DNA from: a virus
Direction: 5' to 3' (one strand)
Virus record (IMG/VR): IMGVR_UViG_3300025913_000081
Span: 1-33,954 of that record
Length of the DNA: 33,954 nucleotides
Part shown: piece after piece, positions 1,330 to 33,227 of the stretch
Layout: each line of letters begins with the position of its first letter
Numbering within the stretch: the first letter of the stretch is position 1
Position numbers and translations under genes: made by a program
The notes under the pieces: model-generated
What the model saw: the letters and a program-made list of their open reading frames with translations, nothing else
What the model was told of the DNA's origin: nothing
The model's database searches: none

Positions 1330-1539
1330 CTACTTCCGTTCTTGCTTCCGCTGCCCGCCCAAGGGTTCCGAGTATCCCATCAGTCCACCGCCTCCGATGC
1401 CGCTGAACTCGTTGACGCCCTCTTCGGACTCGCCGTCTGCCTCTTCGCCGCCGTCCGCCGGCAGGAGCTGGTTGGGAACCCGCGCCTGCGACTCTCGCAC
1501 CGCTAGCCTCAAGTACTGCACGAGCAACTGCTCGCTCAT
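1330..1539 (-). CDS. Small protein with N-terminal helix motif and GGGG..GY..PLG tail
   Basis: The product has 69 residues. The N-terminus, MSEQLLVQYLRLAVRES, resembles the LRxxIxE-type amphipathic helix found at the start of several other proteins in this window (17024, 18128, 18850, 20015, 20448). The C-terminal part reads VNEFSGIGGGGLMGYSEPLGG, here split as an EFSG step, a glycine run and a GYSEPLG end; similar endings occur in small proteins of environmental T4-like phages. I chose the ATG at 1539 because the motif ATACTTA (1551-1545) ends 5 nt before it. There is no Shine-Dalgarno sequence, so the mRNA may be leaderless. It is the last gene before the terminator at 1291-1323. The biochemical role is unknown; a virion or head-associated role is inference from the shared helix. 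Confidence 0.7.
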   Translation of the reverse strand: MSEQLLVQYLRLAVRESQARVPNQLLPADGGEEADGESEEGVNEFSGIGGGGLMGYSEPLGGQRKQERK

Positions 1540-1544
1540 GGCAG

Positions 1545-1551
1545 TAAGTAT
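1545..1551 (-). promoter_or_regulatory. Late-promoter-like motif ATACTTA before the 1539 start
   Basis: ATACTTA is followed by 5 nt and then ATG. The motif, the GC base in front of it and the spacing are the same as before the gene at 15432. By analogy with T4 late promoters, whose single element ends about 6 nt before the start of transcription, the mRNA would begin at the A of the ATG. Confidence 0.5.
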
Positions 1552-1586
1552 GCCGCAGCGCGGCCCAGGTGAGGAAAAGTGACGCT

Positions 1587-1916
1587 TCAGCGCAGCCCGA
1601 GGGCCTCGCGCTCGTCTGCCGAGAGCTTGGCGAGCCCCTGCTTCTTCAGCAGCTCCCGCTGCCCGAGCCGGGCCTCCTCCAGGGTGGAGACCAGCCGGAT
1701 GGGCTCGTCGTCGACGAGCAGGTACGCCTTGCCTCGTGCCAGGATCGCCCACCTCTGTTCGGTCGGAGCGTCACCGCCCCAGTTGCCGCTGCGGTGAGCG
1801 ATCTGCTGCGCCAGCGCCGACGTGGTGCAGATCTCGGTGGGCGACCCGCTGGCCCGGTCGTCGTTGTTGCGGTGCACCGTCCACACCGGAAAGATGTCGC
1901 CTTCTGCGAAGTTCAT
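1587..1916 (-). CDS. Hypothetical protein of 109 residues
   Basis: The product begins MNFAEGDIFPVWTVHRNND and contains RWAILARGKAYLLVDDEP followed by a charged helical C-terminus rich in Glu, Leu and Lys. I do not recognise the family. The ATG at 1916 shares its A with the TGA stop of the HD-domain gene (TGATG), so the two are translationally coupled and a functional link to that enzyme is possible. A longer in-frame extension to 2072 would overlap the HD gene by more than 150 nt and is not credible. Confidence 0.75.
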   Translation of the reverse strand: MNFAEGDIFPVWTVHRNNDDRASGSPTEICTTSALAQQIAHRSGNWGGDAPTEQRWAILARGKAYLLVDDEPIRLVSTLEEARLGQRELLKKQGLAKLSADEREALGLR

Positions 1917-2536
1917 CACGTCTTCTCCACAGGCCACACGTTGGAGCTCTTCTCGTCCATGGTGGCCACGTAGTCGGCCGTCATCAGGCCGTAGACGAGT
2001 GGGCTGACCTTGAGGCAGTAGGCCTTGTTGGGCTCCCAGACGAAGCCGTCGTTGCAGCGGATGGCCAGCCACTCGTCGGCCGTCAGCTTGACGCCGTAGT
2101 GCTGCATGATGAAGACGCTGCGGTCAGGGGTGGTCAGGTACTGCAGGTCGTTGTTGTAGGCGTAGACCTCGCCCCGCTTGCGCTTCCAGTCGTCGGGCTG
2201 CTCCACGTAGAAGTCGTGGGAGCGCTCCTTGCCAGGCAGGCCCACCTTGCCCACGTCGTGGAACAGGGCCGACAGGATCATGCTCTGCTTGGGCAGGCCC
2301 CAGCCGAATGCTCCATTGAGGGCGACCAGGCGATTGAGCACCCGCAGGCTGTGGTCGACCAGGCCGCCCGGGAAGGCCCCGTGGTAGTCGGTCTTGGCCG
2401 AGGCCGGGCACGTGGCCAGGCGCTCGTCCATCTCTGACAGCATCTTCTCGACCGCCGGCGTCCGGTCGCCCAGCTTACCGCACAGTCCCAGGAACTTGAT
2501 CCAGTTCTTCTCGATCTCTTCCGGCGTCAGCGACAC
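1916..2536 (-). CDS. HD-domain metal-dependent phosphohydrolase
   Basis: The product has 206 residues. The HD signature is visible: His62 in GGLVDHSLRVLNRL, the His93-Asp94 pair in ALFHDVGKVG, and a late Asp188 in LMTADYVATMD, which together would bind the catalytic metal. Such enzymes hydrolyse nucleotides or related phosphoesters; the substrate cannot be read from the sequence. The start is GTG at 2536, preceded by GGAGAAGAAGCC, and overlaps the end of the previous small gene by 10 nt. It sits with the DNA polymerase gene, so a role in nucleotide metabolism or in control of nucleotide signals during infection is reasonable inference. HD-domain proteins are frequent in phages of this type. 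Confidence 0.85.
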   Translation of the reverse strand: MSLTPEEIEKNWIKFLGLCGKLGDRTPAVEKMLSEMDERLATCPASAKTDYHGAFPGGLVDHSLRVLNRLVALNGAFGWGLPKQSMILSALFHDVGKVGLPGKERSHDFYVEQPDDWKRKRGEVYAYNNDLQYLTTPDRSVFIMQHYGVKLTADEWLAIRCNDGFVWEPNKAYCLKVSPLVYGLMTADYVATMDEKSSNVWPVEKT

Positions 2537-2706
2537 GGCTTCTTCTCCACGTAGCTCTCGCAGAGCTCCTTGAGTTCGACCTCGGTCGGATGGTGATCGA
2601 AGTCGCCAACGTAGCCTTCTTCCGGGTACTCCACCTCGAAGACGCGGTACCTGTCCCCGGCCGGTCCACAGTTTGCTAGCACTGTGACCTCAACAGTCTC
2701 ATCCAT
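2527..2706 (-). CDS. Small acidic hypothetical protein
   Basis: The product has 59 residues, begins MDETVEVTVLANCGPAGD and is rich in Glu and Asp. A section reading RVFEVEYPEEGYVGDFD suggests a beta-rich fold, but no family is recognised. The ATG at 2706 is the natural start, because it lies 6 nt after GTACTGT (2719-2713), a weak version of the late-promoter motif, and there is no Shine-Dalgarno sequence close by. The 3' end overlaps the HD-domain gene by 10 nt, which supports that both are translated. Confidence 0.7.
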   Translation of the reverse strand: MDETVEVTVLANCGPAGDRYRVFEVEYPEEGYVGDFDHHPTEVELKELCESYVEKKPCR

Positions 2707-2712
2707 GCCAGG

Positions 2713-2719
2713 ACAGTAC
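2713..2719 (-). promoter_or_regulatory. Degenerate late-promoter-like motif GTACTGT before 2706
   Basis: GTACTGT shares TACT with ATACTTA and stands 6 nt before the ATG of a gene without a Shine-Dalgarno sequence. The match is poor and the call depends on the better copies elsewhere. Confidence 0.25.
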
Positions 2720-2738
2720 CCTTGCCCCGGGCCGCTGT

Positions 2739-3953
2739 TCAACCGCCCATCCTCTCCAGGCGGAGGTTGAACTTCTGCACGTAGCCGGGAACCTTGACGT
2801 GGGTGATCGCCTCCACCGTGGGCAGGTCCTCGTCCAAGACGTCCAGCAGGATCGCATCGTGCAGCAGGAAGATGGGCCGGACCCGAGGAGCCTCTGCGGC
2901 CAGCCGGTCGACCACCTGCCGGAAGCCCAGCATCGTCACGTCGACGCCGGTGGACTGCCCGTAGTAGGCGATGAAGATGTGGTCGAGGGGCTCGTCCACT
3001 TCGACCGGGCGACCGTACCGGTTGGTGATCCTGCCGGTCGCCACGAACTGGGCCTTCACGCGGGCCAGCAGCTCGTCGGTGCTGAAGTAGGCCCCCACCT
3101 TCTTGACAAAGGCATCGAGCTCGGCCCCCGAGATCCCGAGCCGGGCGCCCAGGGCCCACTTGCTGCTGCCGTACAGGGTGCTGAGGACTGCGGCCTTGAC
3201 TGAGTTCCGATCGTGGCCCATCTCTCGGGCGATCGTCCCGTAGAGGTCGGCCTCCTCACACCGCCTCCCGTGCTCGTACAGCAGGATGCGGGCCTCCAGG
3301 GCCGCGAAGTCGAGAGCGACCACCCGGCCCCGGTCGCCGTGCACTGACCGCAGGATGCTGCGGTGCTTCTTCTTCAGGGTCAGGATCTGCGGGCCACTCC
3401 TGACGGTCAGCCGCCCGGTCAGGGTCCGGAACCTGTCGTACTCCACCTCGCGGGCTAGCCCCTCTTCGTCGGGCTGGAAGGATCGGGTCGCCGCCACGTT
3501 GCCCTCCGCGGCCTCGACGAGCCGCTGCCAGGCCTCTGCGTCCACCCGGCACCTGTGCAGTGACCGGAAGATGCCGTTTCCGGGCACCCAGACGGCCCTA
3601 TAATAATCGAGCGGGGCGGCTGCCATGGCTACAGCCACCTCACCTGCCAGCCTTTTTGTGAAGGCCAGGTGGGCCCCGCGCGGCATCACCCGCTGCCACG
3701 GGACTGGCTGCGTCCCCAGCGAGCTCGACAGCAGAGACATCTGCCTGACGAAGGCCGCAGGCGGCTGCAGGTCGATCGCCTGCCCGCTCAGCCTCAAGGC
3801 TGTGTCGAGGCACCAGTCGCTGTCTTCTTTGGCCTGGCCTGACAGGTGCCAGAAGCCCTCAGGGACCCGTGCCGCCCACCGGTACGAGCCCTCGTCGCAG
3901 GCCAGGTGTTCCTTGGTGCCGAGCAGCCGGCGATCGAGGCAGAATCTGGGCAC
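2739..3953 (-). CDS. Family A (Pol I-like) DNA polymerase domain protein, no exonuclease domain
   Basis: The product has 404 residues and carries the polymerase domain only. Visible landmarks are the template-binding region TLTGRLTVRSGPQILTLKKK (177-196), motif A DFAALEAR with catalytic Asp215, motif B with Arg249, Lys253 and Tyr261-Gly262, a conserved Gln333, and motif C His365-Asp366-Ala367. The usual motif C is His-Asp-Glu, so the Glu is replaced by Ala, while both metal-binding Asp residues are kept. No 3'-5' exonuclease motifs are visible and the first 165 residues are unlike Pol I. The start is GTG at 3953 because no in-frame upstream start exists. T4 itself uses a family B polymerase, so this is a different solution or an additional enzyme. 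It lies just downstream of baseplate genes. Confidence 0.85.
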   Translation of the reverse strand: MPRFCLDRRLLGTKEHLACDEGSYRWAARVPEGFWHLSGQAKEDSDWCLDTALRLSGQAIDLQPPAAFVRQMSLLSSSLGTQPVPWQRVMPRGAHLAFTKRLAGEVAVAMAAAPLDYYRAVWVPGNGIFRSLHRCRVDAEAWQRLVEAAEGNVAATRSFQPDEEGLAREVEYDRFRTLTGRLTVRSGPQILTLKKKHRSILRSVHGDRGRVVALDFAALEARILLYEHGRRCEEADLYGTIAREMGHDRNSVKAAVLSTLYGSSKWALGARLGISGAELDAFVKKVGAYFSTDELLARVKAQFVATGRITNRYGRPVEVDEPLDHIFIAYYGQSTGVDVTMLGFRQVVDRLAAEAPRVRPIFLLHDAILLDVLDEDLPTVEAITHVKVPGYVQKFNLRLERMGG

Positions 3954-3989
3954 GGTCCATCGTAAGGCCCGACGGGCGGGTTCTACACC

Positions 3990-6881: not shown

Positions 6882-7175
6882 TCACCCCACCAGGGCCGCC
6901 ACGGCGGCCAGGTCGACGACGTTGATGACGGTGCCAGGAGGCACCTGCAGGCCCCAGCCCACGTTGCTGGCAGCGGCCAGCACCCACCAGTAGCGGCCGT
7001 CGCCGTATAGCACGCCGGCCATGGTGTCGAGCCGCTCGCGGCCCCTGACGACGATGGGCTTGACGAGCAGCTGACCGTTCTTGACAGCCAGCTGGATCGC
7101 TTCCCGGGCCCGGCTGGTGCCGAACTGGCTGCCGAAGGCCAGGATGGGGGAGCGAGAGTACCTTGAGAAGGCCAT
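6882..7175 (-). CDS. LysM-like baseplate wedge protein, T4 gp53-like
   Basis: The product has 97 residues. The core reads RGRERLDTMAGVLYGDGRYWWVLAAAS, followed by PPGTVINV. The pattern RxDxLAxxxYGDxxxWW(V/I)(I/L)A is typical of LysM-like small baseplate proteins, the group that includes T4 gp53 and tail protein X. It would help lock the hub to the wedges. The ATG at 7175 shares its A with the stop of the 1077-residue gene (TGATG). T4 gp53 is about twice as long, so only the conserved core is present. Confidence 0.8.
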   Translation of the reverse strand: MAFSRYSRSPILAFGSQFGTSRAREAIQLAVKNGQLLVKPIVVRGRERLDTMAGVLYGDGRYWWVLAAASNVGWGLQVPPGTVINVVDLAAVAALVG

Positions 7176-10100
7176 CAGGTGGTCCCTCCGGCGCCCGTGG
7201 TCGAGGCATCATACTGCTGGCCCAGCAGGCCCACAGGGTAGACGGGTGCCCTATTGAAGCCGTTGTGATCCAGGCCCGGGGTGATGTCGTGGACCGGGCT
7301 GAAGGAGATGGTGACCTTGCACATCTTGGGAGCCGTCCGGCCAAGCGTCGTCTCCCAGGTGACCCGGTCGTACCAGTCGAAGTTCATCGTCTCGATGAAG
7401 CCCGCCAGGCCCTTGCCTCCGGTGTCCTTGAACGACTTGGCCAGGGCGTTGGCGTTGCTGCCGTCGACCAGCAGAAAGTTGCCGACCTCAGTGGCGAAGC
7501 TCGAGCCGCCGCTGGTGTTGGTGACGTTCTGCAGGACGTCGTTCTTGGTCTTGGGAGTCGGCGTCAGCGAAGCGATCGGGATCGAGTAGGTGCCACCGAT
7601 GACGTTCTGCAGCGGCTTGCTGGGATCGCCAAACTGGAACGTCGCGGCCGCCGTCATCCCGGAGTAGGCCGCAGCGAAGGCTGGGTCGTCGTTGAGCTGG
7701 ACCTCGCACACCAGCTGCGTGGTGCCTGCCTTGATCGCGGCCGAGTCGGACGGGGAGTTGGGGTCAACGCTCTTGGCCTTCACTGTCAACAGTCCCGCGG
7801 GGGCGGCCTGAGGCGAGAACTGCGGGGCGAACTTGGGCCCGGACGAGCTGCCCAAGGCAGGCACCGGCGGGCCCGGGAAGGGCTTGCCTTGGTCGTCGAT
7901 GTACGGATAGACCCCGGGAGCCACGATGTACGTCTCACCGTTGGGACTGCCGAAGGCCTGCTGCAGGCCCTGAGTGTACTTCTGCATGTCATCGTCGCTC
8001 AGGACGGGGGTGTCGTCCGTCTGGCCGTTGACCGCGAAGCCGTCGTTGCCCAGGCCGAACAGGCGGGCCAGGCCGAAGCGCGAGTAGTTGGTCTTCAGCA
8101 GGTCGCCCAACCGCAGGCGGATCAGCGGCGAGGCTCCGATCAGCTGGCTGAAGGGCTGGGTGAACTTGTAGCTGGTCCCGTCGGCCGAGGCCAGGGTGAT
8201 GCCCTGCGTGAACTGCGGGTAGAGCAGGGTGACCAGCTTGTTGATCTTGACCCACATCTCGTCGAAGTCCTGCATCGACGTGGCGACCACGTAGAACGAC
8301 ATGCCGATCCTTCGCTCGGTGCCGCGGTACGTCCTGACGGGCTCCACCCGGCCGTAGCCGTCAGTCTTCTCGTAGGAGGCCGCAAAGTCGTCCGTCAGTG
8401 AGGCCAGGAAGGCGTGGAAGGCGACCATCTCGTTGGTCCGGAGGTCATGGAAGTAGAAGGGCACGTACTCAGAGTCCAGCTGCGCCTCGAAGGCCGCCGC
8501 CGTGTCGGCGTCGAGGCGCGGTGTCGACTGGACGACCTTCGACCTGACGTTCGACAGCGGGTCGCTCTGGGAGCCCAGCATGGGGTCGAACTGTCCCAGA
8601 CCAGTCGCCACCAGGGCCGGGCCCAGGATGTTGCTGGGCAGCAGCAGCTGCGCCGGCGACCGGTTGGAGGCCCAGGCCAGCTTCAGGCTGCCCTTCAGCC
8701 GGCTCTTGTTGACGCCGTCTGACAAGGCATTGTCGATATTGTCCTGCTGCGACACCTTGACGCCGCCCAAGGCGTCCGGATCGACCCAGTCCTTGGGCAG
8801 CACCAGGATGGCGTCGCCCAGCATGGCGAAGACATTGAAGGCGGCGATCACCTTCGACTCCCGGATGGTGTCCATCAAGGCCAGGATCTGGTTGATGGCG
8901 TTCATCGGGTTGCCGCCGATCTTCTTGGCCTGGTCGACGATGGCAATGCCGCCCCTCAGGATGCAGCGGATGACGACGACGTTGAAGCCCGGGCTGTCGA
9001 TGCTGGAGGCCAGGACGCCCAGCAGCTGGCCGCCGATGCCAGCGTCCTGTGGCAGGCCGAAGAAGGCATTGGCCCCCACCGACAGGCACTGGCTGAACGG
9101 GTAGTTGGTGGGCTGGATGCCCAGCAGGGCCCCGAAGTTGAGGGCGCCTCCCTGGAAGGCGGCGATGGCACCGCCGATGCCGCCTGCCGCAGCCTTGTGG
9201 GCCTGCTTCTCCCCGGAGTAGTACTCGCCCAGGCTGTACCTGCCTTGTGGGTCGTGGTTGGGCTTCTTTGACTGCGAGGTGATGAGTCCCAGCAGGGCGC
9301 TGAGCCCGTCGACCAGCAGCTCGAGGGCCCCCACCAGTGCGATCGACAGGATCGACATGCCCAGGGCGTCCAGGCCCGAGAACGGATCGTTGGCATTGTT
9401 GAGGGCGCCCCACGAGTCGGTGCCCGGGCTAATGACGAACGAGCCGTTCAGCGTGTCGTCCGTCAGCCCGCCCGCCAGGACGTCAGAGGCGTACATCGAG
9501 GCCGGATCGACGGTGGTGACGCCCAGCTGGGCCACGCCGGGCAGCAGGCCGGCCGCGGCCTGTTCTAGGCCCGAGTTGGGATCCGTCTTCGGGCTGGAGG
9601 CGCCCAGCTCCCTGCCCGCCCGCAGGGTCAGCAGCGGGCCGATGGTGGCCAGCTGCTCGAAGTTGACGCCCTTGGCCCGAGGATCGTAGGAGCCCAGCTT
9701 GGTCTGCTGGGGCAGGGTTGGGTTGAACCCAGAGTTTCCTGAGGGGGCCCCCGTCGCCGGCAAGAACGCGCTGGCAGCGTCAGTGAACCGGTTGCGCGTC
9801 ATGACGGCCGACACGTAGGGCGAGACGACCTTCGAGGTGTCTGGGTGGCCGACGACCGGCCGCGGCCTCGTCGACGGCCCTGATCCGACCAGGCTGCCGT
9901 CGTGCGCCGAGAGGTCGACCGTGCCTGGCACGCCCGGCAGCAGGTCGTTGCCGTCTGTCTTGCCTTGGTCGCCCTTGCCCTTCCGGAAGCCCGCCAGCTT
10001 GGAAAAGCTGTCGCTCAGGGCACTGAGGTACTGCTCGTCGGTGACGAAGGCCTTGCTGTTGTCGACTCCCGCGGCTCCCGGGGTCTGCAGGGCCGGGTTG

Positions 10101-10408
10101 CCCGTTTTGGTCGTGGTCGACTCTGCCTTGTAGCCGGCGTCGACCGGGTACGCGTTGGCGACGGGAGTGTTGGTCCCCTTGCCCTGCGTCAACCCGCTGA
10201 GGTACTGAGCAAGTGTCGTCTTCGTCTTGGTCGTCAGGTCCTTGGGCTGCCCGCTGCCGTCGACGTAGCCCGCCGAGACGTCGACTCCCTCCTTGTAGGG
10301 ACCCTGGGCGCCGCCCTCTGCTTCCGGCACCCCGACGTCGTAAGTGTACGTCTGGCCGCCTACGTCGAACCCGCCCGGACCTGTGTCGATCGGCTGTCCC
10401 GCTCCCAT
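7175..10408 (-). CDS. Very large baseplate/tail structural protein
   Basis: The product has 1077 residues. The first ~250 residues are low in complexity (Gly, Thr, Pro, Asp) and probably extended. Residues about 347-376 form a long hydrophobic stretch (GMSILSIALVGALELLVDGL and onward), and a second Gly/Ala-rich hydrophobic part follows at about 405-480. Residues about 648-735 contain YVPFYFHDLRTNEMVAFHAF, then a basic strand and EMWVKINKLVTLLYPQF. The C-terminus (about 1005-1065) has FIETMNFDWYDRVTWETTLG and a strand-rich end. The last two parts resemble conserved regions of large baseplate proteins of environmental T4-like phages. The ATG at 10408 is 4 nt after the stop of the preceding gene, with GGGGTGACGA upstream. 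The role is structural; the hydrophobic segment raises the question of membrane contact during injection. Confidence 0.7.
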   Translation of the reverse strand: MGAGQPIDTGPGGFDVGGQTYTYDVGVPEAEGGAQGPYKEGVDVSAGYVDGSGQPKDLTTKTKTTLAQYLSGLTQGKGTNTPVANAYPVDAGYKAESTTTKTGNPALQTPGAAGVDNSKAFVTDEQYLSALSDSFSKLAGFRKGKGDQGKTDGNDLLPGVPGTVDLSAHDGSLVGSGPSTRPRPVVGHPDTSKVVSPYVSAVMTRNRFTDAASAFLPATGAPSGNSGFNPTLPQQTKLGSYDPRAKGVNFEQLATIGPLLTLRAGRELGASSPKTDPNSGLEQAAAGLLPGVAQLGVTTVDPASMYASDVLAGGLTDDTLNGSFVISPGTDSWGALNNANDPFSGLDALGMSILSIALVGALELLVDGLSALLGLITSQSKKPNHDPQGRYSLGEYYSGEKQAHKAAAGGIGGAIAAFQGGALNFGALLGIQPTNYPFSQCLSVGANAFFGLPQDAGIGGQLLGVLASSIDSPGFNVVVIRCILRGGIAIVDQAKKIGGNPMNAINQILALMDTIRESKVIAAFNVFAMLGDAILVLPKDWVDPDALGGVKVSQQDNIDNALSDGVNKSRLKGSLKLAWASNRSPAQLLLPSNILGPALVATGLGQFDPMLGSQSDPLSNVRSKVVQSTPRLDADTAAAFEAQLDSEYVPFYFHDLRTNEMVAFHAFLASLTDDFAASYEKTDGYGRVEPVRTYRGTERRIGMSFYVVATSMQDFDEMWVKINKLVTLLYPQFTQGITLASADGTSYKFTQPFSQLIGASPLIRLRLGDLLKTNYSRFGLARLFGLGNDGFAVNGQTDDTPVLSDDDMQKYTQGLQQAFGSPNGETYIVAPGVYPYIDDQGKPFPGPPVPALGSSSGPKFAPQFSPQAAPAGLLTVKAKSVDPNSPSDSAAIKAGTTQLVCEVQLNDDPAFAAAYSGMTAAATFQFGDPSKPLQNVIGGTYSIPIASLTPTPKTKNDVLQNVTNTSGGSSFATEVGNFLLVDGSNANALAKSFKDTGGKGLAGFIETMNFDWYDRVTWETTLGRTAPKMCKVTISFSPVHDITPGLDHNGFNRAPVYPVGLLGQQYDASTTGAGGTT

Positions 10409-10411: not shown

Positions 10412-10699
10412 TCACCCCAGCGAGCCCGACGACGCGGGCTCGCTGCCGGTAACTACCCCGCGCCGCTCATTGACGGCCCGGCCCAGGCGTTCCCGGAAGG
10501 CAGGATCCTTCTGGGCCTGGTCGATGATGGGGGCCAGGATGTCGGCCCAGCTGCTGACGAACTCGGTGACGGTAGCAGCGATCATGCGTCGCTCCTCCGG
10601 CGTTCGAGCCTTGGCCAAGGCCTGCTTGTACTTGTCGTTCTCGTAGAGCTGTCGCAGGAAGTCCTTGCGGCTGTGAGGGACTGATGTTACCTTCGCCAT
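10412..10699 (-). CDS. Small hypothetical protein between tape measure and baseplate genes
   Basis: The product has 95 residues, is charged and predicted mostly helical (DFLRQLYENDKYKQALAKA, then RTPEERRMIAATVTEFVSS). The family is not recognised. It starts with ATG at 10699, 15 nt after the stop of the tape measure gene, and its stop is 3 nt before the next start, so it belongs to the tail operon. A tail assembly or tape-measure partner role is plausible from position only. No clear Shine-Dalgarno sequence is seen; TAGAGT lies 7 nt before the ATG but is too unlike the late motif to call. Confidence 0.75.
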   Translation of the reverse strand: MAKVTSVPHSRKDFLRQLYENDKYKQALAKARTPEERRMIAATVTEFVSSWADILAPIIDQAQKDPAFRERLGRAVNERRGVVTGSEPASSGSLG

Positions 10700-15437: not shown

Positions 15438-15444
15438 TAAGTAT
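15438..15444 (-). promoter_or_regulatory. Late-promoter-like motif ATACTTA before 15432
   Basis: ATACTTA is followed by 5 nt and the ATG, and the surrounding bases nearly repeat the site at 1545-1551 (GCATACTTACxGxC then ATG). If it is a promoter, the transcript starts at or next to the start codon. Confidence 0.5.
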
Positions 15445-19202: not shown

Positions 19203-19691
19203 TCAGAACTGCAGGACCGCGTTGTCGAAGCGCAGGGTCAGCGAGATCTCGGCGGCGCCGCCGTCCTCGTAGGTCAGCTCGCCGAAGTTCGCCTCAGTGA
19301 TGAAGGCGCCCTTGATGTCCCATAGCTCGACGACGGTGCCGACAGGGTCCAGCAGCTTCAGCTGGACGTCGCGCTTGTAGAAGTCCGCGTAGCCCGAGCG
19401 GCCCGAGACCGACTCGAAGTGGAGCCGGATCCACTCCATGATCTGCTGGGCGCCCGAGGGGGCGATCGGGTCGTGCAGGGTGACGGCGATGGTGTTGAAC
19501 TTCGTCAGGCCGGCCAGGTAGCGGCGGCTGTTGATGAAGGGCACCTCGACCTCCTCGGTCGTCACGGTCGGGCGCGCCGTCGTCTTGATGATGTAGGCGT
19601 CGATGCCCTCGATCATGAGGATCCATCGGTTCTTGCGCTTGGGCTCGAACTTGTTGGGCAGCATCGACGTGACGTCAAGTGTCTCAGCCAT
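19203..19691 (-). CDS. Tail tube protein, T4 gp19-like
   Basis: The product has 162 residues, almost the length of T4 gp19 (163). It begins with SMLPNKFEPKRKNRWILMIE and a strand reading GIDAYIIKTTARPTVT, then EVEVPFINSRRYLAG, TIAVTLHDPIAPS and a C-terminal VELWDIKGAFITEANFGEL strand pair. This is the typical order of the gp19 tube family: a lipid-like start, the IKTTARP strand, and a helix with MEWIRLHFE. Stacked hexamers of it form the inner tube that guides DNA. The ATG at 19691 is preceded by AGGAGA with 5 nt spacing. A late-type motif, ATACCTA, lies 26 nt upstream. Confidence 0.95.
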   Translation of the reverse strand: MAETLDVTSMLPNKFEPKRKNRWILMIEGIDAYIIKTTARPTVTTEEVEVPFINSRRYLAGLTKFNTIAVTLHDPIAPSGAQQIMEWIRLHFESVSGRSGYADFYKRDVQLKLLDPVGTVVELWDIKGAFITEANFGELTYEDGGAAEISLTLRFDNAVLQF

Positions 19692-19717: not shown

Positions 19718-19724
19718 TAGGTAT
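19718..19724 (-). promoter_or_regulatory. Late-promoter-like motif ATACCTA upstream of the tail tube gene
   Basis: ATACCTA, followed by AAGAC, lies right after the stop of the preceding gene and 26 nt before the tube ATG. A transcript from it would have a ~20-nt leader containing the AGGAGA ribosome site. This suits a gene needing very high expression. Confidence 0.4.
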
Positions 19725-20474: not shown

Positions 20475-23400
20475 TCACGGGATGGCCTGGTTGATGTTGT
20501 TCGTCACCACGAAGTCGAGGGAGACGAACTCGATCGACTTGGTCGGCTGGACGAAGATCTTGCCGCGGATGGTGTTGTTCTCGATGTCCTGCTGTGTCGT
20601 GGTCGACGAGTCGATGACGACCTTGAAGCGTTCCAGGCCTGCCTGGGCCTGGATCCTCTGCAGGCGCGGGGTGACGGCGGCCGAGAACTTGGCCAGCGTC
20701 GCCTCGCGGTTGGGCTCGAACATGATGTTGAGGGCGATGTCGCGGACCTGCCGGCGGATCTCGATCAGAAGGCGCCGGACGTTGACCCTGTCCAAGGCGC
20801 TGGCAGCCTGCTGCAGCGTCTTCTGGCCCCAGACCACCACGCCGCCCTTCGGGTTGGTGCCGCCCGAGGCGTTGCCCGGGAAGGCTACCAGCGGGTTGAT
20901 GTCGACGTCGTAGAGGACGTCCATGTTGGGCTTCGACAGCTGGACGGTCGCCTCGAGGGTCGTCTGCAGTGCGCCGCGGGTGAAGCCGGCGGGGGCGAAC
21001 CACGGGTGGCCCACCTTGTCGTTGAGGGCCATCGCCCCCAGGACCGGGACGGAGGGAGGCACCACCACGTTGGTGGCCGTCGTCGGGTCGGGCATCACCA
21101 CGTCTGGGAAGTACGCTGCGCCGAAGCTGCTGTCGACGGCCCTCTCCGCGAAGTTCTGAGCCGTGAAGGTGACGGACGGCGTCTGCGAGGGGTCCGTCAC
21201 CAGCTCGTCGTTGGTGTCGTACTGCTCGATGTCCATCAGGTACAGGGCATCGAACCGGTTCTCGACGGCGGCCAGGGCCGCGTCGGTGACGACCGGGTGC
21301 CTGATGCCGGGGATGGCCAGCAGCTGCAGGTCGGTGTTCGTCAGCTCGCCCATGATCTGCAGGGCCTTGTTGTAGGCTGACACCGTGGCGCCGTTGTTGG
21401 AGCCGCGGTTCGGGTCCGTCATGTCGCCCTCGACGGCAGCGTTGTCGAGGCGCGCCTCGTCCTGGTCGAAGACGTTGGTCCCGTCGAAACCGCCCTGCAT
21501 GAAGAAGGTCCACTTCAGGAAGCGGCGGTTGGCCTGGATGAAGTCGTCCGGATCCAGGGCGCGCGTCTTGTTGGCATCGTTGGCCGCGATGTTGCCCCCG
21601 CGGAAGTAGGCCGCGTTGACCCACTGGTTGGGGTCAGCCAGGCCCGACGAGCCTGTCACCACCTGGACGTTCATCAGGGAGAACGCGTTGGTGTTGAAGA
21701 GGTCGTTGTCGATGACGCCGTTGGCCGACGTCGACGGAGTCCCGGCGTTGTCGGGGGTGGCGAAGTCCTGGACGTCGATCCGGTGCATCGGGAAGAACTG
21801 GGCGAAGGCGTCCAGCGACTCGTTGTGCAGGGTCGACAGGTTGGGGATCGCCAGGCTGGTGACGTGCTCGAACTGGTAGCCCCAGTAGAGCAGCGGGTTG
21901 ACCTGGATCTTCGCGCCGGAGCCCTGCGTGATGTTCTGCCGCATCGGCACCGGGGGCTGCTTGACCCGGGTCCAGCAGGAGCCGTCGATGACGCCGGCCG
22001 TCCCGGCCGGGCGCGCCAGCGGGTCGGTGCCCGCCGTCATCAGGTGCGACGGCCCGCGCAGGCCGACAGGCATGGCCGTCGGGTCGACCTCCTGGCTGTC
22101 CACGCTCGGGTCCATCTCGATCCTGATGTAGTTCGAGGCGTTGGCGTAGTTGCCGTCCACCGCGAGCTTCTGGGCGGTCGGGCCGCGGTCGAAGTCGAAG
22201 TAGGCGTGCTGGTCGCCGATGACCTTGGCGATGTACTGGTCGTCGCTCGGGTTGAGGCTCAGGCCCCTCCACTGCTCCAGGTAGACGGGGGCAGCGTCGT
22301 TGTCGGACCACTGTCGGACCGTCAGGTCGAAGGCCGGGTACTGGTTGGCCGGGTCCGTCGACGGGGCGATGTTCTCGATCGACAGCTTGTACAGCGTCGA
22401 CACGCCAGCGCCGGCGTCCAGGGCGTGGACCTTGAACAGGTTGTGGGGCTTGCCGCCGAAGGGCTGCGACACCACCCACGGGCTGGCGGCCTCGCTGAAC
22501 CTGTCGCGGAAGTCCTCGAAGTCAGGGGCCGTCGCCGAGCCGAGGTCGCGGGCCGTGGAGCCCGTCAGCAGGAAGGCAGCGGGCTCTGCTCCCGCGGGGG
22601 AGGCCGTCGAGGCACCCGAGCCGCTGACGGCCGCGATGATGCCCGAGCCGGTGACGACGGCCGTCGCCGGGTAGATGTCCCAGGAAGCGTAGACCACGTG
22701 GCCGGCCTGCTGCAGCTTGGTCGGGTCCGCGTTGAGGACGTTGGCGAAGTAGTTGGGAGAGGTGACGTCGAACGAGGCCGTCACCACGTTGGGGTACAGC
22801 GGATCGAGCCCCTGGTGGCCGTTCAGCAGCAGGACGAAGTCCTGCTTGGCGATGCCTCCCTGCAGCAGGTTGACGGCGCCCAAGGAGGCGCCGTTGCCGT
22901 CAGAGGCCACAGCGTTGGTCCCGGGCTTGAGGCTGGTCGCTGTCGAGGACGACAGGGTCAGCACCACGCCGCTGGCCGCCATCAGCACGCCCCTGAGGAT
23001 GGGCTGCGCGGATGAGCCGCTCTGCAGGCCGGCCGAAGAGAAGACGGTGGAACCCGCCGACTCTGACATGAAGCAGCCCAGGAAGTACGTCCGCCCCGCC
23101 GCGCCGCCGGAGTTGGCGAACGGGTTGGGGCTCAGGATGCCCGAGTTGTTGGCACTGGGCTCCTTCTCGCCGACCGTGAAGCCGGCGTGGTTGACGTCGC
23201 CCGTCTGGGTGTTGCGCTGGTTGCCGTCACCGATGCCCAGGACCCTGAGGTACGTCAGGGCCTGGGCGTTGCGCAGCCACTCTGAGGCTGCCAGCGGGCC
23301 GAACTTGATGCCGTCGGTCGGGCCGAACTTGGCGGTGAAGTCAGAGAAGAGGCCGACCGTCACCGGGACGTAGGCCGGCCCCTTCACCGCGGTGCCGATG

Positions 23401-23498
23401 ATGCCGGCCGGGACGCCGACCGGCTGCTGGGCCACGGGACCGGAGAGGTCGATCTCCGTCGCTGAAACCCCTGCTGCGCCGAACTTGAGCTGTGGCAT
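20475..23498 (-). CDS. Tail sheath protein, second copy (T4 gp18-like)
   Basis: The product has 1007 residues, well over the 659 of T4 gp18. The N-terminus has EIDLSGP and GVPAGIIGTAVKGPAYVPVT (28-47), then KFGP and ALTYLRVLG. The C-terminal third holds HPWFAPAGFTRGAL, VVVWGQKTLQ, RVNVRRLLIEIRRQV and KSIEFVSLDFVVTNN, the conserved polymer-forming part of contractile sheaths. The central ~600 residues are variable, Ser/Ala/Gly-rich in part, and probably form outer domains. The ATG at 23498 has GAGGA 5 nt after-spaced upstream, and ATAGTTA stands 15 nt upstream. It lies right after a divergent paralogue, so both may be incorporated in one sheath or used separately. Confidence 0.96.
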   Translation of the reverse strand: MPQLKFGAAGVSATEIDLSGPVAQQPVGVPAGIIGTAVKGPAYVPVTVGLFSDFTAKFGPTDGIKFGPLAASEWLRNAQALTYLRVLGIGDGNQRNTQTGDVNHAGFTVGEKEPSANNSGILSPNPFANSGGAAGRTYFLGCFMSESAGSTVFSSAGLQSGSSAQPILRGVLMAASGVVLTLSSSTATSLKPGTNAVASDGNGASLGAVNLLQGGIAKQDFVLLLNGHQGLDPLYPNVVTASFDVTSPNYFANVLNADPTKLQQAGHVVYASWDIYPATAVVTGSGIIAAVSGSGASTASPAGAEPAAFLLTGSTARDLGSATAPDFEDFRDRFSEAASPWVVSQPFGGKPHNLFKVHALDAGAGVSTLYKLSIENIAPSTDPANQYPAFDLTVRQWSDNDAAPVYLEQWRGLSLNPSDDQYIAKVIGDQHAYFDFDRGPTAQKLAVDGNYANASNYIRIEMDPSVDSQEVDPTAMPVGLRGPSHLMTAGTDPLARPAGTAGVIDGSCWTRVKQPPVPMRQNITQGSGAKIQVNPLLYWGYQFEHVTSLAIPNLSTLHNESLDAFAQFFPMHRIDVQDFATPDNAGTPSTSANGVIDNDLFNTNAFSLMNVQVVTGSSGLADPNQWVNAAYFRGGNIAANDANKTRALDPDDFIQANRRFLKWTFFMQGGFDGTNVFDQDEARLDNAAVEGDMTDPNRGSNNGATVSAYNKALQIMGELTNTDLQLLAIPGIRHPVVTDAALAAVENRFDALYLMDIEQYDTNDELVTDPSQTPSVTFTAQNFAERAVDSSFGAAYFPDVVMPDPTTATNVVVPPSVPVLGAMALNDKVGHPWFAPAGFTRGALQTTLEATVQLSKPNMDVLYDVDINPLVAFPGNASGGTNPKGGVVVWGQKTLQQAASALDRVNVRRLLIEIRRQVRDIALNIMFEPNREATLAKFSAAVTPRLQRIQAQAGLERFKVVIDSSTTTQQDIENNTIRGKIFVQPTKSIEFVSLDFVVTNNINQAIP

Positions 23499-23513: not shown

Positions 23514-23520
23514 TAACTAT
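23514..23520 (-). promoter_or_regulatory. Late-promoter-like motif ATAGTTA upstream of the second sheath gene
   Basis: This exact ATAGTTA lies 15 nt before the ATG, with a GAGGA ribosome site between. It sits in the 54-nt gap between the two sheath genes, so the second sheath gene could be transcribed independently. Confidence 0.6.
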
Positions 23521-23552: not shown

Positions 23553-26500
23553 TCAGACGAACTGCACGCCGCTGTTGGTGATGATGAAGTCGACGGCGAT
23601 GAACTCGATCGCGCGGGTCGGGACCACCACGATCCTGCCGTTCAGCTTGTTCTGGTCGACGTCGGCCTGCGTGTTGTTCGTCTCGTTCATCACGACCTGG
23701 AAGGCCTCGATGCCCTGCTGCGACTGGATGAGGCCCAGCTGCAGCGAGGCCTGGGCGGTGAAGGTCGCCCAGACCGCGGGAGTGTTCTGCTCGAACTCCA
23801 GCTGCAGGGCGATGTTCTTGATGATGCGCTTGACCTCGACCAGCATTCGGCGGACGTTGACGCGGTTGAGGGCCGAGTTCTTGACCTGCAGCGTCTTCTG
23901 GCCCCAGACCACGAAGCCCTGGCGCGGGAAGGTGGCGATGGGGTTGATCCTCGAGTCGTACAGGGTGTCCCTGTCGGACGAGGTCAGCCGCACCTCCACG
24001 TTGGTGACGAAGTCGAGGGCCGCGCGGTTGAAGCCGGCGGGGGCGAACCACGGGTAGCCCACCCGGTCGTTGAAGCCCAGGGCGCCCAGGGCGGCGACCG
24101 AGGCCGGCACCTTGACGCGGCGTCGGTTGGTCTTGTCGTCGATGAAGATGTCCGGGAAGTAGGTCCCCGCGTAGTTGTTGTCGAGGGCCCGGCTGTCGAA
24201 CTGCCTGGACGTCTGGTTGACGTCTGGCTTGGTCGTCGAGTCGTCGAACAGGCGGTTGATCGACTCGTCGTACTTCTCGACGTCCATCACGTAGTAGGCC
24301 AGGCCGTAGTCCCGGACCTTCTGCCCGGTGTAGTCGGTGATGAAGGGCTCACGGATGCCTGGGATGGCCAGCAGGTTGTGATTGGCCCTCATCGGGTCGG
24401 TCATGATGTTGACACCGGCCACGTAGGAGGCGACCGTCGCGTTGGACTGCCCCGTGCCTGTCTGGTTCTGCGAGAAGCCGGCGGGCACGAAGCCGGGGGC
24501 AGCATCGGCGTCGAAGCTCGAGGCCCTGTCGTTCATCCGGCGCGAGTCAGAGTCCAGGAAGTTGACGCCGTCGAAGCCGCCGGCGACGAAGGTGCTGAAC
24601 TTCAGGTACGGGTTGAAGCGGTTGAAGGTCGAGGCCGGAGCCTTGCCCAGCAGGGTGGCGAAGGTGATGCGGTTGCCCAGCACCCCGTCGTTGACAGTGT
24701 ACTGGGTCGTGTCGACCACGCCGTTGCGGACGTAGGCCGCCTCGCGCATGTGCGCGTCGACGGAGGCCGTCAGGTCGTTGATCGAGGTGTTGGAGAAGGC
24801 GACCTTGGCCAGCGTGAACTTGTTGTCGTTGAGGCGATCAGCTCCCGCCCCGGTGACCACCGTGTCGAGGAGCGACAGCCCCTGGAACTGGGTCAAGGCG
24901 CTCAGCAGGCCGTTGGGCGCCGTCTCCAGGTTCGGGTCCAGCGGGATGTCGTTTCGCTCGAACTTGACGCCCCAGTAGTACAGCGGGATCGCCAGCTCGG
25001 TGATGCCGGGCTCGCCGAACCAGGCCGCGGTCGTCGGGCGCTGCCCCTTCGTCACCTTCGACCGGAAGGGAACCGGTGGGACGATGGCACCCGACAGGGC
25101 CTGCGCCGAGCCGGTCACCACGCCGGAGATGCGGACCACGCTGCCGACCTGGGCGGCGTCGGTCAGCGAGTCGTTGGTCTTCAGGACCGCAGGGCCGCGG
25201 AAGCCGAAAGGCAGGCACTGTGCCGGGACCTGTCCCCGGTTGACCTGCTCGTTCATCACCACCCGGACGTAGGCCGACTGGTTGGCGTACTTGCCGCTGG
25301 CGACGACGCGCCGTTCGTTGGGATCCGTGGCGTCGAAGTTGTAGTACAGCTTGCGATCGCCGATGACCTGCGCCACGTAGTTGGGCTTGGTCGGGTCGAG
25401 GGTGCAGTTGTTGAACTGCTCCAGTACGTTCGGGCTGGTGTCGTTGTCGTCCCAGGCCCTGATCTGGACCGCGAAGGTGCCGTACTTGTTGGCGGCATCG
25501 AGAGAGGCCTTCAGGTTGACGATCGACACCTTGAACAGGTTGTTGGCGTACGCGCCGTCGTCCAGGGCCTCGATCCTGAAGAGGTCGTACTCTGTCGCGC
25601 CGAAGGGCTGGCTGATGAAGAAGCTGGTGGTCGGCGTCTTGTAGCGGGTGTTGAACGCGCCGAAGGCCTTGCGGTAGACCAGGGTGTTGTCGCCCGAGGT
25701 GGTGCTGACGTTGTTGGTGCCCGAGACCACGGCCACATAGTTGTTGGCGGCCGTTGCGATCTCATCGTCCACCGCGAAGTCGGAGTACAGCAGGTGGAGG
25801 GCCGAGTCGAACTTGTCAGGGTCGGTGTTGAGGACCTTGCCGAAGTAGTCCTTGGCGCTCGGGTTGAGGGAGGCCGTCACGATGTGGACGCCCGGGTTGC
25901 CGTCCTGGTTGTAGTAGGAGTTGCCCAGGGTCGAAGAGAAGATCAGCTTGAAGTTGCCGGCAGCGTCTGCCAGGCCCGCATCGCTCAGCGAGTTGACGGC
26001 GCCGCCCGTCAGGCTGCGGTTGTAGTCAGCCACCATCATCTTGGTGCCCGAGGCTAGCAGCACCACGCCGCGGACCAGGTTGACGGTCGCGTTGTGGAAG
26101 GAGTCGTTGTCGGTGAAGTCGGCCTGGCCGAAGGCCTCGGCCGCCTGCTTGGTGTGCTGGGCGACCAGGAACTGGACGCAGTGGTCGTAGCGACCGTAGG
26201 GGTCGCCGCCGGAGACCACCTTGCCGCCTCCTGAGGCCGAAAGGACGGTCGTCGAGTCGCCGTCCAGGTGGAAGCCGGCGCTGACGACCTCGCCCGTCTC
26301 CTGTGTCCGCGCGACGTCGGTGGCAGTCGCGTTGGCGCCCGCGCCCAGGACACGCAGGAAGGTCAGGGCCTGGCGGTTGGCGAGGTAGGCGTTGGCCGCG
26401 TAGGGCCCGAAGCGCTTGGGGTCGAGGTCGCCGAACTGGGCGACGAACTGATCCCAGTTGCCCACCGTGACCGGGATGAAGGCGGGGCCGCGGTTGGCGG

Positions 26501-26606
26501 TGCCGATGATGCCTGCAGGGACGCCGGCCGGCCCAACGGGGGCGGGCGCAGACAGATCGATCTCTCGATCGAAGAAGTTCGGCGACCTGAAAGTCTGCTG
26601 GGCCAT
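23553..26606 (-). CDS. Tail sheath protein, first copy (T4 gp18-like)
   Basis: The product has 1017 residues. It shares with the second copy the N-terminal EIDLSAP and GVPAGIIGTANRGPAFIPVT (28-47), ALTFLRVLG, and the C-terminal YPWFAPAGFNRAAL, FVVWGQKTLQ, RVNVRRMLVEVKRII and RAIEFIAVDFIITNS. The middle part differs clearly between the copies. Sheath subunits assemble around the tube in an extended state and contract to drive the tube through the host envelope. The ATG at 26606 is preceded by AGAGGAG with 9 nt spacing, and an exact ATAGTTA lies 31 nt upstream. It follows the gp15-like gene, matching the T4 order of neck and sheath genes. Confidence 0.97.
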   Translation of the reverse strand: MAQQTFRSPNFFDREIDLSAPAPVGPAGVPAGIIGTANRGPAFIPVTVGNWDQFVAQFGDLDPKRFGPYAANAYLANRQALTFLRVLGAGANATATDVARTQETGEVVSAGFHLDGDSTTVLSASGGGKVVSGGDPYGRYDHCVQFLVAQHTKQAAEAFGQADFTDNDSFHNATVNLVRGVVLLASGTKMMVADYNRSLTGGAVNSLSDAGLADAAGNFKLIFSSTLGNSYYNQDGNPGVHIVTASLNPSAKDYFGKVLNTDPDKFDSALHLLYSDFAVDDEIATAANNYVAVVSGTNNVSTTSGDNTLVYRKAFGAFNTRYKTPTTSFFISQPFGATEYDLFRIEALDDGAYANNLFKVSIVNLKASLDAANKYGTFAVQIRAWDDNDTSPNVLEQFNNCTLDPTKPNYVAQVIGDRKLYYNFDATDPNERRVVASGKYANQSAYVRVVMNEQVNRGQVPAQCLPFGFRGPAVLKTNDSLTDAAQVGSVVRISGVVTGSAQALSGAIVPPVPFRSKVTKGQRPTTAAWFGEPGITELAIPLYYWGVKFERNDIPLDPNLETAPNGLLSALTQFQGLSLLDTVVTGAGADRLNDNKFTLAKVAFSNTSINDLTASVDAHMREAAYVRNGVVDTTQYTVNDGVLGNRITFATLLGKAPASTFNRFNPYLKFSTFVAGGFDGVNFLDSDSRRMNDRASSFDADAAPGFVPAGFSQNQTGTGQSNATVASYVAGVNIMTDPMRANHNLLAIPGIREPFITDYTGQKVRDYGLAYYVMDVEKYDESINRLFDDSTTKPDVNQTSRQFDSRALDNNYAGTYFPDIFIDDKTNRRRVKVPASVAALGALGFNDRVGYPWFAPAGFNRAALDFVTNVEVRLTSSDRDTLYDSRINPIATFPRQGFVVWGQKTLQVKNSALNRVNVRRMLVEVKRIIKNIALQLEFEQNTPAVWATFTAQASLQLGLIQSQQGIEAFQVVMNETNNTQADVDQNKLNGRIVVVPTRAIEFIAVDFIITNSGVQFV

Positions 26607-26637: not shown

Positions 26638-26644
26638 TAACTAT
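26638..26644 (-). promoter_or_regulatory. Late-promoter-like motif ATAGTTA upstream of the first sheath gene
   Basis: This exact ATAGTTA lies 31 nt before the ATG; the leader between contains AGAGGAG. Immediately upstream, an imperfect GC-rich hairpin (GCGGGTC and GGACCGC arms, about 26651-26668) separates it from the gp15-like gene. Confidence 0.6.
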
Positions 26645-26675: not shown

Positions 26676-27974
26676 TCAGTCTTCAGCGAGGACGATAGTT
26701 AGGCCGCCGAGGTCAGCGCCCGCCAGCACCGTCTCACCCGTGAAGCGGTTGCGGCCCACGACGCGCACCAGCCTGGTGACGGTTCCTCCGTTCCTGTCAA
26801 TGCCTGTCACCTTTTGAAACGTTGTCAGCTGTGAACCACGGCGGACGTTCTTCAAGGCAGGATCCTGCGGGACCACATCGTCAGGGTGCGGGTAGAGCCG
26901 GGTGCCATTGACCCGCCGCTGGTCTGCCCTGCGAGAGGGCCCATCGCTGCCGTCGGCCAGGGGCAGTGTCGGGTCGTCCGCCCCCAGGAAGGGCTCCACC
27001 ACCTCGCCGGAGCCAACCAGCTGGATGTCACCCTGGATGCCGGCCTGGAAGGAGATGGTCGGCGAGCTGACGTATCGCTTGATGGGAATGGGCGCTCCTG
27101 GGACGGCAGGCGCGAAGGCGTAGCCGGGGACCTTGACCGTGAAGCGGTACTTGATGTTCCTCTCTGCCTGAGAGTAGTCGTCAGCGTTGAGGTCAGCGCT
27201 GTACTGGTTGCTGTCGACGGTGGCCATGAACCAGTAGCCCTTGTCGGTGTCCAGGCGCCAGGCGTTGCCCTGCGGCAGGAAGGACCCCAGCAGGGCCTCC
27301 AGCATCTGGTTCATGTGCGCGGTGTACTGTGCCCACAGGACCACGTCGTAGGTGGCTGTGAAGAACTGCGGGGCCGGCACCACGATGGTCTCAAAGACGT
27401 TGTCGAGCCGGTTGCCGGCCAGCAGGCCGCCCTGCTGGACGACTGGGTCTGACTCCAGCTCGCCCACCTCCCGCAGGGTCGTCAGCTGGTTGGGGTCGGC
27501 GGCCCCTGGGGGCACCCCCAGGTTCGACTGGTGCCTCAGGAAAAGTCGATTGATGAGGTTCTGGTACCCGCGGTCCGATTTGTCTAGCCGGCGGTGGATG
27601 ACGATCTCGCCCGTCTGCTGGTTGATCCCACGCCCAGTCACGTCGAGGGTCGGGTCCTGGACCACGCTGGTCCGGACTGCCGTCACCAGCGGCAGGATCA
27701 GCGAGCCGTTCCTGTCGTGCAGGGCCCGCAGCTTCTTGTTGAGCGACCACTTCTCGCCTGCGTAGAAGACGACAGGCACCTTCTTTGACTCTGTCCCGTC
27801 CCCGCCGACGACCATGTTGATGCCCGAGTCGAACAGGGTGAACAGTGCCCTGTCGACGTCGCTGATGCCGACAGACGGGATCGTGATGTCAGGCGCCGAC
27901 TTGCCCTGGTATCCCGACGGCAGGCCGGGGACCCCGAACCTGGAGCGCGCTCGTGCCGTGTAGCGAGTCGTCAT
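26676..27974 (-). CDS. Tail completion and sheath stabiliser protein, T4 gp15-like
   Basis: The product has 432 residues. The gp15 pattern is visible: DRALFTLFDSGINMVV, KVPVVFYAGEKWSL, GSLILPLVTAVRTSV, then FFTATYDVVLWAQYTAHMNQ, MLEALLGSFLPQG, and IKYRFTVKVPGYAFAP. In T4, gp15 forms the hexameric ring that ends the tail and joins it to the neck. The protein is longer than T4 gp15 (about 270 residues) and has an added C-terminal region containing GSQLTTFQKVTGID. The ATG at 27974 comes 6 nt after the stop of the gp14-like gene, with GAGGGACC upstream, so the two are cotranscribed. Confidence 0.8.
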   Translation of the reverse strand: MTTRYTARARSRFGVPGLPSGYQGKSAPDITIPSVGISDVDRALFTLFDSGINMVVGGDGTESKKVPVVFYAGEKWSLNKKLRALHDRNGSLILPLVTAVRTSVVQDPTLDVTGRGINQQTGEIVIHRRLDKSDRGYQNLINRLFLRHQSNLGVPPGAADPNQLTTLREVGELESDPVVQQGGLLAGNRLDNVFETIVVPAPQFFTATYDVVLWAQYTAHMNQMLEALLGSFLPQGNAWRLDTDKGYWFMATVDSNQYSADLNADDYSQAERNIKYRFTVKVPGYAFAPAVPGAPIPIKRYVSSPTISFQAGIQGDIQLVGSGEVVEPFLGADDPTLPLADGSDGPSRRADQRRVNGTRLYPHPDDVVPQDPALKNVRRGSQLTTFQKVTGIDRNGGTVTRLVRVVGRNRFTGETVLAGADLGGLTIVLAED

Positions 27975-29857: not shown

Positions 29858-29864
29858 TAACTAT
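29858..29864 (-). promoter_or_regulatory. Late-promoter-like motif ATAGTTA before 29852
   Basis: This exact ATAGTTA is followed by CGGAC and then GTG. It heads the gp13-gp14-gp15 operon. Confidence 0.6.
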
Positions 29865-30812: not shown

Positions 30813-30820
30813 TCCGGCCT

Positions 30821-30827
30821 TAACTAG
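30821..30827 (-). promoter_or_regulatory. Late-promoter-like motif CTAGTTA before 30812
   Basis: CTAGTTA lies 8 nt before the ATG; the bases between (AGGCCGGA) include a weak AAGG ribosome site. The GCCGG and CCGGC on its two sides form an inverted repeat around the motif. Confidence 0.5.
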
Positions 30828-30842
30828 GCCGGCTCAGGAGGG

Positions 30843-32625: not shown

Positions 32626-32631
32626 TGCAGG

Positions 32632-32638
32632 AACCTAC
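32632..32638 (-). promoter_or_regulatory. Degenerate late-promoter-like motif GTAGGTT before 32625
   Basis: GTAGGTT is 6 nt before the GTG start. It resembles the 33220-33227 copy (ATAGGTTA) more than the common form. Confidence 0.3.
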
Positions 32639-32657
32639 ACCCGCGGTGCAGCGGTGT

Positions 32658-32882
32658 TCAGACCGCCGTGACGAGGGCCTGGACCGCGAGCTCTACGCGG
32701 CGGCGCAGCTCCTCGGGCAGGGCAGACAGCAGGACGTACTGCTCTGGGCGGTAGCCGCCCATCGGGACGCCCTCGCTGATCGACTGCGTGTTCGGGACTC
32801 CGACCCTGATGACTAGGGGCGGGCGACGGCCGTCGGCCGCGGCGATCGGTTGGTAGAGGTCAACTCGCTGTGCTTGCGCCAT
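32658..32882 (-). CDS. Hypothetical protein of 74 residues
   Basis: The product begins MAQAQRVDLYQPIAAADG and has a strand LVIRVGVPN, a loop MGGYRPEQYVLL and a C-terminal helix ELRRRVELAVQALVTAV. I do not recognise the family. The ATG at 32882 is preceded by GGAGAAGAGAG and overlaps the end of the 52-residue gene by about 20 nt. It ends 32 nt before the methyltransferase gene. Confidence 0.7.
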   Translation of the reverse strand: MAQAQRVDLYQPIAAADGRRPPLVIRVGVPNTQSISEGVPMGGYRPEQYVLLSALPEELRRRVELAVQALVTAV

Positions 32883-33018
32883 CTCTCTTCTCCGGCGGCG
32901 CCTGGGCCGCCAACCGCCGGAGCTGCTCCTGGAGGGGCTTGGGATCCATGCCGGCCACTTGGGCCGCGGCGATCCGCTCCATGAGGTCAGCGACCCGGCG
33001 CTCCCAGTCGGTCAGCAC
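32860..33018 (-). CDS. Small helical protein of 52 residues
   Basis: The product starts with GTG at 33018 and begins MLTDWERRVADLMERIAAAQ, continuing helical with PLQEQLRRLAAQA and a charged end. GAAGGG lies 7 nt before the GTG, and the start comes 2 nt after the stop of the 62-residue gene, so the two are coupled. The pair of tiny helical proteins may interact. Longer readings in this frame, to 33390, overlap the neighbouring coupled gene and were rejected. Function is unknown. Confidence 0.6.
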   Translation of the reverse strand: MLTDWERRVADLMERIAAAQVAGMDPKPLQEQLRRLAAQAPPEKRDGASTAS

Positions 33019-33020
33019 GG

Positions 33021-33209
33021 TCAACCCTTCAGGACCTGCTTGCCCTCGGTGAGGGCATCGTTGGCGCTGGACAATGCCCGGCGCAGGCGCCTCAGGTCGA
33101 CCTCGCACTGGGCCACGGTCGTAGCCGCGCCTGGATCGCCCTTGGCGATCGCCAGGGTCTCTTCTGTCTGCTTGATCTGCTCGAGGAGCCGCTCCGTGGA
33201 TGCTGACAT
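33021..33209 (-). CDS. Small coiled-coil protein of 62 residues
   Basis: The product begins MSASTERLLEQIKQTEETLA and has two long charged helices separated by GDPGAATT (ERLLEQIKQTEETLA, then QCEVDLRRLRRALSSANDAL), so it is probably a helical hairpin. The ATG at 33209 is preceded by AGGATGGGC and by ATAGGTTA (33227-33220) 10 nt upstream. It heads the group of small genes downstream. No family is recognised. Confidence 0.7.
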   Translation of the reverse strand: MSASTERLLEQIKQTEETLAIAKGDPGAATTVAQCEVDLRRLRRALSSANDALTEGKQVLKG

Positions 33210-33219
33210 GTGCCCATCC

Positions 33220-33227
33220 TAACCTAT
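33220..33227 (-). promoter_or_regulatory. Late-promoter-like motif ATAGGTTA before 33209
   Basis: ATAGGTTA (ATAGTTA with one extra G) lies 10 nt before the ATG; AGGA just after it can serve as the ribosome site. It heads the small-gene group that ends before 32625. Confidence 0.45.

Follow-up and report, generated by a model that had tools for sequence, protein, structure and literature searches.

The window, by which we mean the whole 33,954-base stretch of the virus record analysed here (65% GC), covers the tail module of a T4-superfamily phage. Every called gene lies on the minus strand, and the tail genes include two tail sheaths, a tube, a baseplate hub and a head-tail adaptor. The two sheath paralogues are adjacent and each has its own copy of the candidate promoter motif described below; the sheath pair is also found in close relatives. 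These genes and three further features of the record are listed here.

20475-23498, minus strand: sheath paralogue, 1007 aa
23553-26606, minus strand: sheath paralogue, 1017 aa
387-977, minus strand: gene for a homing endonuclease of the GIY-YIG type, close to the end of the record
2739-3953, minus strand: DNA polymerase I-like protein of 404 aa within the tail module, matching the polymerase part of phrog_17 only
33522-33891, minus strand: tmRNA gene (Rfam RF00023)

The tag that ARAGORN assigns to the tmRNA, AGEPGVNWNAPKHWA, looks misread, and an earlier frame gives ANGIASAPALAA followed by a stop. tmRNA genes are also present in the tail regions of two related genomes used below, G001 (locus L120, tag ANDNGALPLRLAA) and G002 (locus L097, tag ANDNGVAPLALAA).

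Copies of a heptameric motif in the window

The pattern MTASTTA, that is [AC]TA[CG]TTA, matches the window 10 times against 0.63 expected, with nine of the 10 matches on the gene strand, and the maximum reached in 100 shuffles of the window was 4. When the pattern was broadened to [ACG]TA[CGT]TTA, 10 of 11 copies fell within 60 nt of a called start, and de novo EM on the upstream regions of the window recovered the same motif. A preliminary description of this DNA had listed exact copies on the minus strand and one at 26695 on the plus strand; all of these were confirmed, and the gaps of 5-6 nt that it gave before the starts at 1539, 15432, 17024, 18128, 18850 and 29852 are correct. The gene-proximal copies, including one that the preliminary description overlooked (10450-10456), are as follows.

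1545-1551, minus strand: ATACTTA, gap of 5 nt to the ATG of the 1330-1539 gene (69 aa)
15438-15444, minus strand: ATACTTA, gap of 5 nt to the ATG of the 15151-15432 gene (93 aa)
17031-17037, minus strand: ATAGTTA, gap of 6 nt to the ATG of the 16659-17024 gene (121 aa, tagged N-terminus)
18135-18141, minus strand: CTAGTTA, gap of 6 nt to the ATG at 18128 (327 aa, tagged N-terminus)
18857-18863, minus strand: ATAGTTA, gap of 6 nt to the ATG of the 18155-18850 gene
29858-29864, minus strand: ATAGTTA, gap of 5 nt to the GTG of the 28662-29852 gene (head-tail adaptor)
30821-30827, minus strand: CTAGTTA, gap of 8 nt to the ATG of the 30459-30812 gene, which would be near-leaderless
23514-23520, minus strand: ATAGTTA, gap of 15 nt to the sheath paralogue 20475-23498, leaving a short leader
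26638-26644, minus strand: ATAGTTA, gap of 31 nt to the sheath gene 23553-26606, with a leader that contains the Shine-Dalgarno sequence AGAGGAG
19718-19724, minus strand: ATACCTA, candidate degenerate promoter of the tail tube gene 19203-19691, backed by orthologues
10450-10456, minus strand: GTAGTTA, gap of 41 nt to the 7175-10408 gene

For the gene starting at 18128, our home-made gene caller picked position 18110 instead. The sole plus-strand ATAGTTA (26695-26701) falls within the 3' end of the 26676-27974 gene, and chance predicts about 0.3 copies per strand.

Looser matches had also been put forward, namely ATACCTA at 19718, ATAGGTTA at 33220, TACTGT at 2713 and TAGGTT at 32632. All four strings are present, but the weak variants stand at background: versions of the core with one mismatch showed no excess at any gap, which leaves the proposed sites before 2706 and 32625 unsupported. 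The ATACCTA site before the tube gene held up, given that the exact motif precedes most tube orthologues at a nearly equal distance (gaps of 22-27 nt).

The motif among related phages

De novo EM on the upstream regions of G001 and G002 returned other GC-rich patterns and not the motif, so the relatives were tested with the fixed motif, a profile trained on the window and permutations of the pattern. A search with the sheath protein gave 80 related loci, some of them in contigs of 298-340 kb. The motif precedes the sheath start in nearly all of the approximately 60 relatives checked, where it takes the forms ATACTTA, ATAGTTA, ATATTTA and ATAATTA, its core mostly begins 36-64 nt upstream of the start, and the interval holds a Shine-Dalgarno sequence. 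The motif is family-wide over genomes of about 35 to 66% GC, and its middle base tends to track genome composition, with ATA[CG]TTA in the GC-rich members and ATA[CT]TTAT in the AT-rich ones. Conservation extends to individual sites in the window: the motif at 23514 is kept before orthologues of the sheath paralogue 20475-23498 at gaps of 18-36 nt, and genes similar in size to 7175-10408 in G001 and G002 are preceded by GTAGTTA at a gap of 37 nt.

Whole-genome counts were made in G001 (340 kb), G002 (309 kb), G003 (298 kb) and G009 (369 kb), using gene calls that were blind to the motif. The home-made caller that produced them awards a bonus for a Shine-Dalgarno sequence and is thus biased against leaderless starts. 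Together with the window, these genomes hold 201 copies of [ACG]TA[CGT]TTA within 60 nt of a called start, several-fold over expectation (29, 54, 58 and 50 copies in G001, G002, G003 and G009 against 1.9, 3.9, 8.0 and 4.2 expected), so that the motif neither occurs at chance frequency nor lacks a preference for starts. Three rearranged control patterns, counted in the same genomes and over the same distance, stayed near expectation, and when all permutations of the pattern were tested only those that keep the core approached the real count. When the window-trained profile was run on G002, the top-scoring of 200 permuted-column controls equalled the real fraction, probably because most of the core survived in it. 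Upstream of the motif, as far as -45, nothing stands out as a -35 element, and there is no extended -10 signal either.

The genes preceded by the motif in G002 that have PHROG matches include those for the sheath, tube, hub, head-tail adaptor and endolysin. A random sample of genes lacking the motif contained more metabolism and replication genes, along with portal and terminase, which presumably lie downstream in operons. The promoter-like element without a -35 box proposed from the window is therefore a family-wide feature, enriched before virion and lysis genes and similar to the T4 late box. In T4, that box starts at -13 and ends at -6, roughly one helical turn ahead of the transcription start and with no conserved -35 element (PMC2988020). 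Like the motif of this clade, the T4 late promoter (TATAAATA; gp55/gp33/gp45) is one box without a -35 element before virion genes. Aligned with TATAAATA, the motif agrees at T-11, A-10, T-7 and A-6, whereas positions -9 and -8 are [CGT]T here and AA in T4. The late consensus of Aeromonas phage Aeh1 has a C at -12 and is otherwise T4-like (PMC2988020), and this C matches the CTAGTTA copies seen here. In Microcystis phage Mel-JY01, the closest isolate by sheath, ATA[CGT]TTAT occurs near starts 22 times against 3.9 expected.

A gp55-family protein in the related genomes

The preliminary description had linked its T4-type promoter to a gp55-like sigma factor, and a search for such a gene found a gp55-family protein (phrog_234) of about 270 residues in G001, G002 and G003, with E-values of 3e-5 to 6e-8, as well as in many related contigs, including L134. 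The T4 gp55 query that led to this PHROG family is identical to T4 records over 184 residues. Another late-sigma family, phrog_12791, gave no match, and a sequence search with the sigma alignment against solved structures returned chance kinase matches only. Mel-JY01 also encodes a gp55-like protein, which is 28% identical.

The window is a fragment, and no sigma factor gene was identified in it. L134 (64% GC) shares its metagenome of origin with L009, a contig with 99.9% identity to the window over 8.6 kb, and L134 may therefore belong to the window phage itself. An AlphaFold2 model of the L134 protein has a mean pLDDT of 70, with the sigma-2 region mostly at 84-92. The model aligns almost solely with sigma factors, the T4 gp55 open complex (7d7c_F) ranking third with a Z of 10.4 over 124 residues; the Foldseek E-values for this model were weak. 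Given the co-occurrence of protein and motif and the precedent of T4, the motif would most likely be read by this gp55-family phage sigma factor on the host RNA polymerase, acting as a single -10-type element without a -35 box.

As in T4, then, a gp55-family sigma factor accompanies the motif in three large relatives; unlike in T4, no T4-type or beta clamp was found, since searches of G001-G003 for a sliding clamp (phrog_223, PF02767) gave no match, and a divergent clamp could escape such searches. The gp55-like proteins (L123:1381-2193, L134:6767-7582 and relatives) carry an extra conserved C-terminal domain, for which a fold search gave nothing clear, and many members end in a hydrophobic KF[KR]LF. 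This domain or its hydrophobic end could possibly provide a clamp or flap contact.

Distance to the start codon and proposed leaderless translation

Pooling the 201 gene-proximal copies revealed a sharp peak in the gap between motif and start codon, with 43 copies at 5 nt and 17 at 6 nt; 8 copies lie at 4 nt and a single one at 7 nt, and no other distance exceeds 11. A gap of exactly 5-6 nt accounts for 60 of the 201 copies and a gap of up to 8 nt for 82 genes, about four in ten, while about half of the copies lie 12-60 nt upstream. In a coarser count over 159 further loci, the 5-6 nt peak was present in three GC classes and weakest in the AT-rich class. If the last A of the motif is taken as -6, following T4 spacing, the start codon falls at +1 when the gap is 5 nt and at +2 when it is 6 nt. 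Gap statistics in the relatives thus agree with the earlier proposal for the window, in that the element is placed where, assuming T4 spacing, transcription would begin at the start codon.

The short gap is kept at some genes and not at others. The 1539 gene has a gap of 5 nt in the window, G001 and G002 despite only 46% protein identity. For the 15432 gene the gap is 5 nt in the window and 6 nt in L013, against 19-36 nt in other relatives, which have a Shine-Dalgarno-like sequence and often a GTG start. For the head-tail adaptor gene (29852) it is 5 nt in the window and 4 nt in L086, against 15-31 nt in the other motif-bearing relatives.

We consider it likely that a clade of T4-superfamily jumbo phages uses the motif as its late promoter, that a gp55-like sigma factor recognizes it and that the mRNAs of the short-gap genes are leaderless. 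Under this joint reading, transcription would start about 6 nt past the last A of the motif. Copies 12-60 nt upstream would yield ordinary mRNAs with a Shine-Dalgarno sequence, whereas copies at most 8 nt from the start would yield mRNAs whose 5' end coincides with the start codon or precedes it by 1-3 nt and that would be translated as leaderless mRNAs. The clade would thus probably possess a new variant of the T4-type late promoter, one that is leaderless by design.

We think it unlikely that the promoter is real but the short-gap genes are translated mainly from mRNAs reading through from upstream, with the adjacency of motif and start codon mostly a product of compact packing. The dense one-strand arrangement of the genes is compatible with such read-through, as is the motif before 18850 (18857-18863), which includes the stop codon of the preceding gene. 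Packing, however, predicts a broad range of short gaps rather than the peak at 5-6 nt, and it does not readily explain the retention of the short gap at the 1539 gene across so diverged a protein. T4 and Mel-JY01 are compact too, yet show no such peak: in the 50 kb of T4 examined, boxes up to 35 nt from an annotated start have gaps of 14-35 nt and none under 14, and the gaps in Mel-JY01 are mostly 13-60 nt.

It is more doubtful still that the motif serves as a -10 box for the housekeeping sigma factor of the host, in the manner of leaderless TANNNT promoters. Such promoters are common in actinobacteria. They are common in Deinococcus-Thermus as well, where, as in the clade, the promoter element adjoins the open reading frame, but where TANNNT is read by the host housekeeping sigma factor and is not a phage late promoter (PMC12340547). 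A -10 box near the start is a known leaderless layout in hosts of this kind, and NATA[CG]T followed by 7 nt would suit the usual spacing. Neither register fits the copies well, however: in one, 29-31% of copies have C in place of the essential A-11 and hardly any have T-12, and in the other, T-7 is always A. The lack of a -35 or extended -10 signal, the spread of the motif over genomes of such different GC content and its enrichment before virion genes likewise speak against the housekeeping factor. Finally, a translation or RNA-processing signal near start codons, which the position of the motif directly upstream of many of them might suggest, is very improbable, as about half of the gene-proximal copies have a normal Shine-Dalgarno sequence between motif and start, and the sequence, gene set and absence of a -35 box resemble the T4 late promoter.

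Two further signals were weighed in connection with the proposed leaderless late promoter and set aside. The preliminary description had correlated short gaps with the lack of a Shine-Dalgarno sequence and longer gaps with its presence. The correlation exists, with median Shine-Dalgarno energies of -2.2 kcal/mol for short-gap and -6.6 kcal/mol for leadered genes, but on the leaderless side it follows mechanically: when the motif is grafted 5-6 nt upstream of unrelated genes, the median is likewise -2.2 kcal/mol, because the motif fills the slot of the Shine-Dalgarno sequence. The other side of the correlation is informative, as leadered motif genes have stronger Shine-Dalgarno sequences than motif-less genes (p 1.8e-4). 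A purine at +7, considered as a start-site signal, is strong in the pooled set but weak once overlap with the Shine-Dalgarno sequence is avoided.

T4-type late transcription is a textbook system, and the T4 boxes in the region checked all leave room for a leader. A clade with its late box repeatedly 5-6 nt from the start would be the first T4-type late system with built-in leaderless mRNAs that we could find, and a search of the literature library used here gave no paper on leaderless T4-type late mRNAs. Leaderless translation would become readable from the genomes of uncultured phages, with better annotation of start sites, and a predicted sigma factor and its promoters can now be named for in vitro work.

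An N-terminal tag resembling LxxLRxxIRE is present in 18 of the 82 short-gap genes, compared with 61 of 1754 motif-less genes (p 2e-9); among leadered motif genes it was found in 8 of 104. In the window, the LxxLRxxIREA-type tag occurs in 16659-17024, 17145-18128 and 18155-18850 (all minus strand), and many genes of G001, G002, G003 and G009 carry it. In sequence, the tag resembles the capsid-targeting signals that internal proteins of T4 carry (PMC9026906). We tentatively speculate that the clade fuses late promoter, start codon and head-targeting tag, such that leaderless late mRNAs might favour capsid-packaged, injected proteins through a non-Shine-Dalgarno initiation route separate from that of the main structural genes.

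G002 also has two adjacent tRNA genes with a CTA anticodon (L100:8801-8949, plus strand). These are possible amber suppressors, and TAG is still the stop codon in 50 of the 417 called genes.
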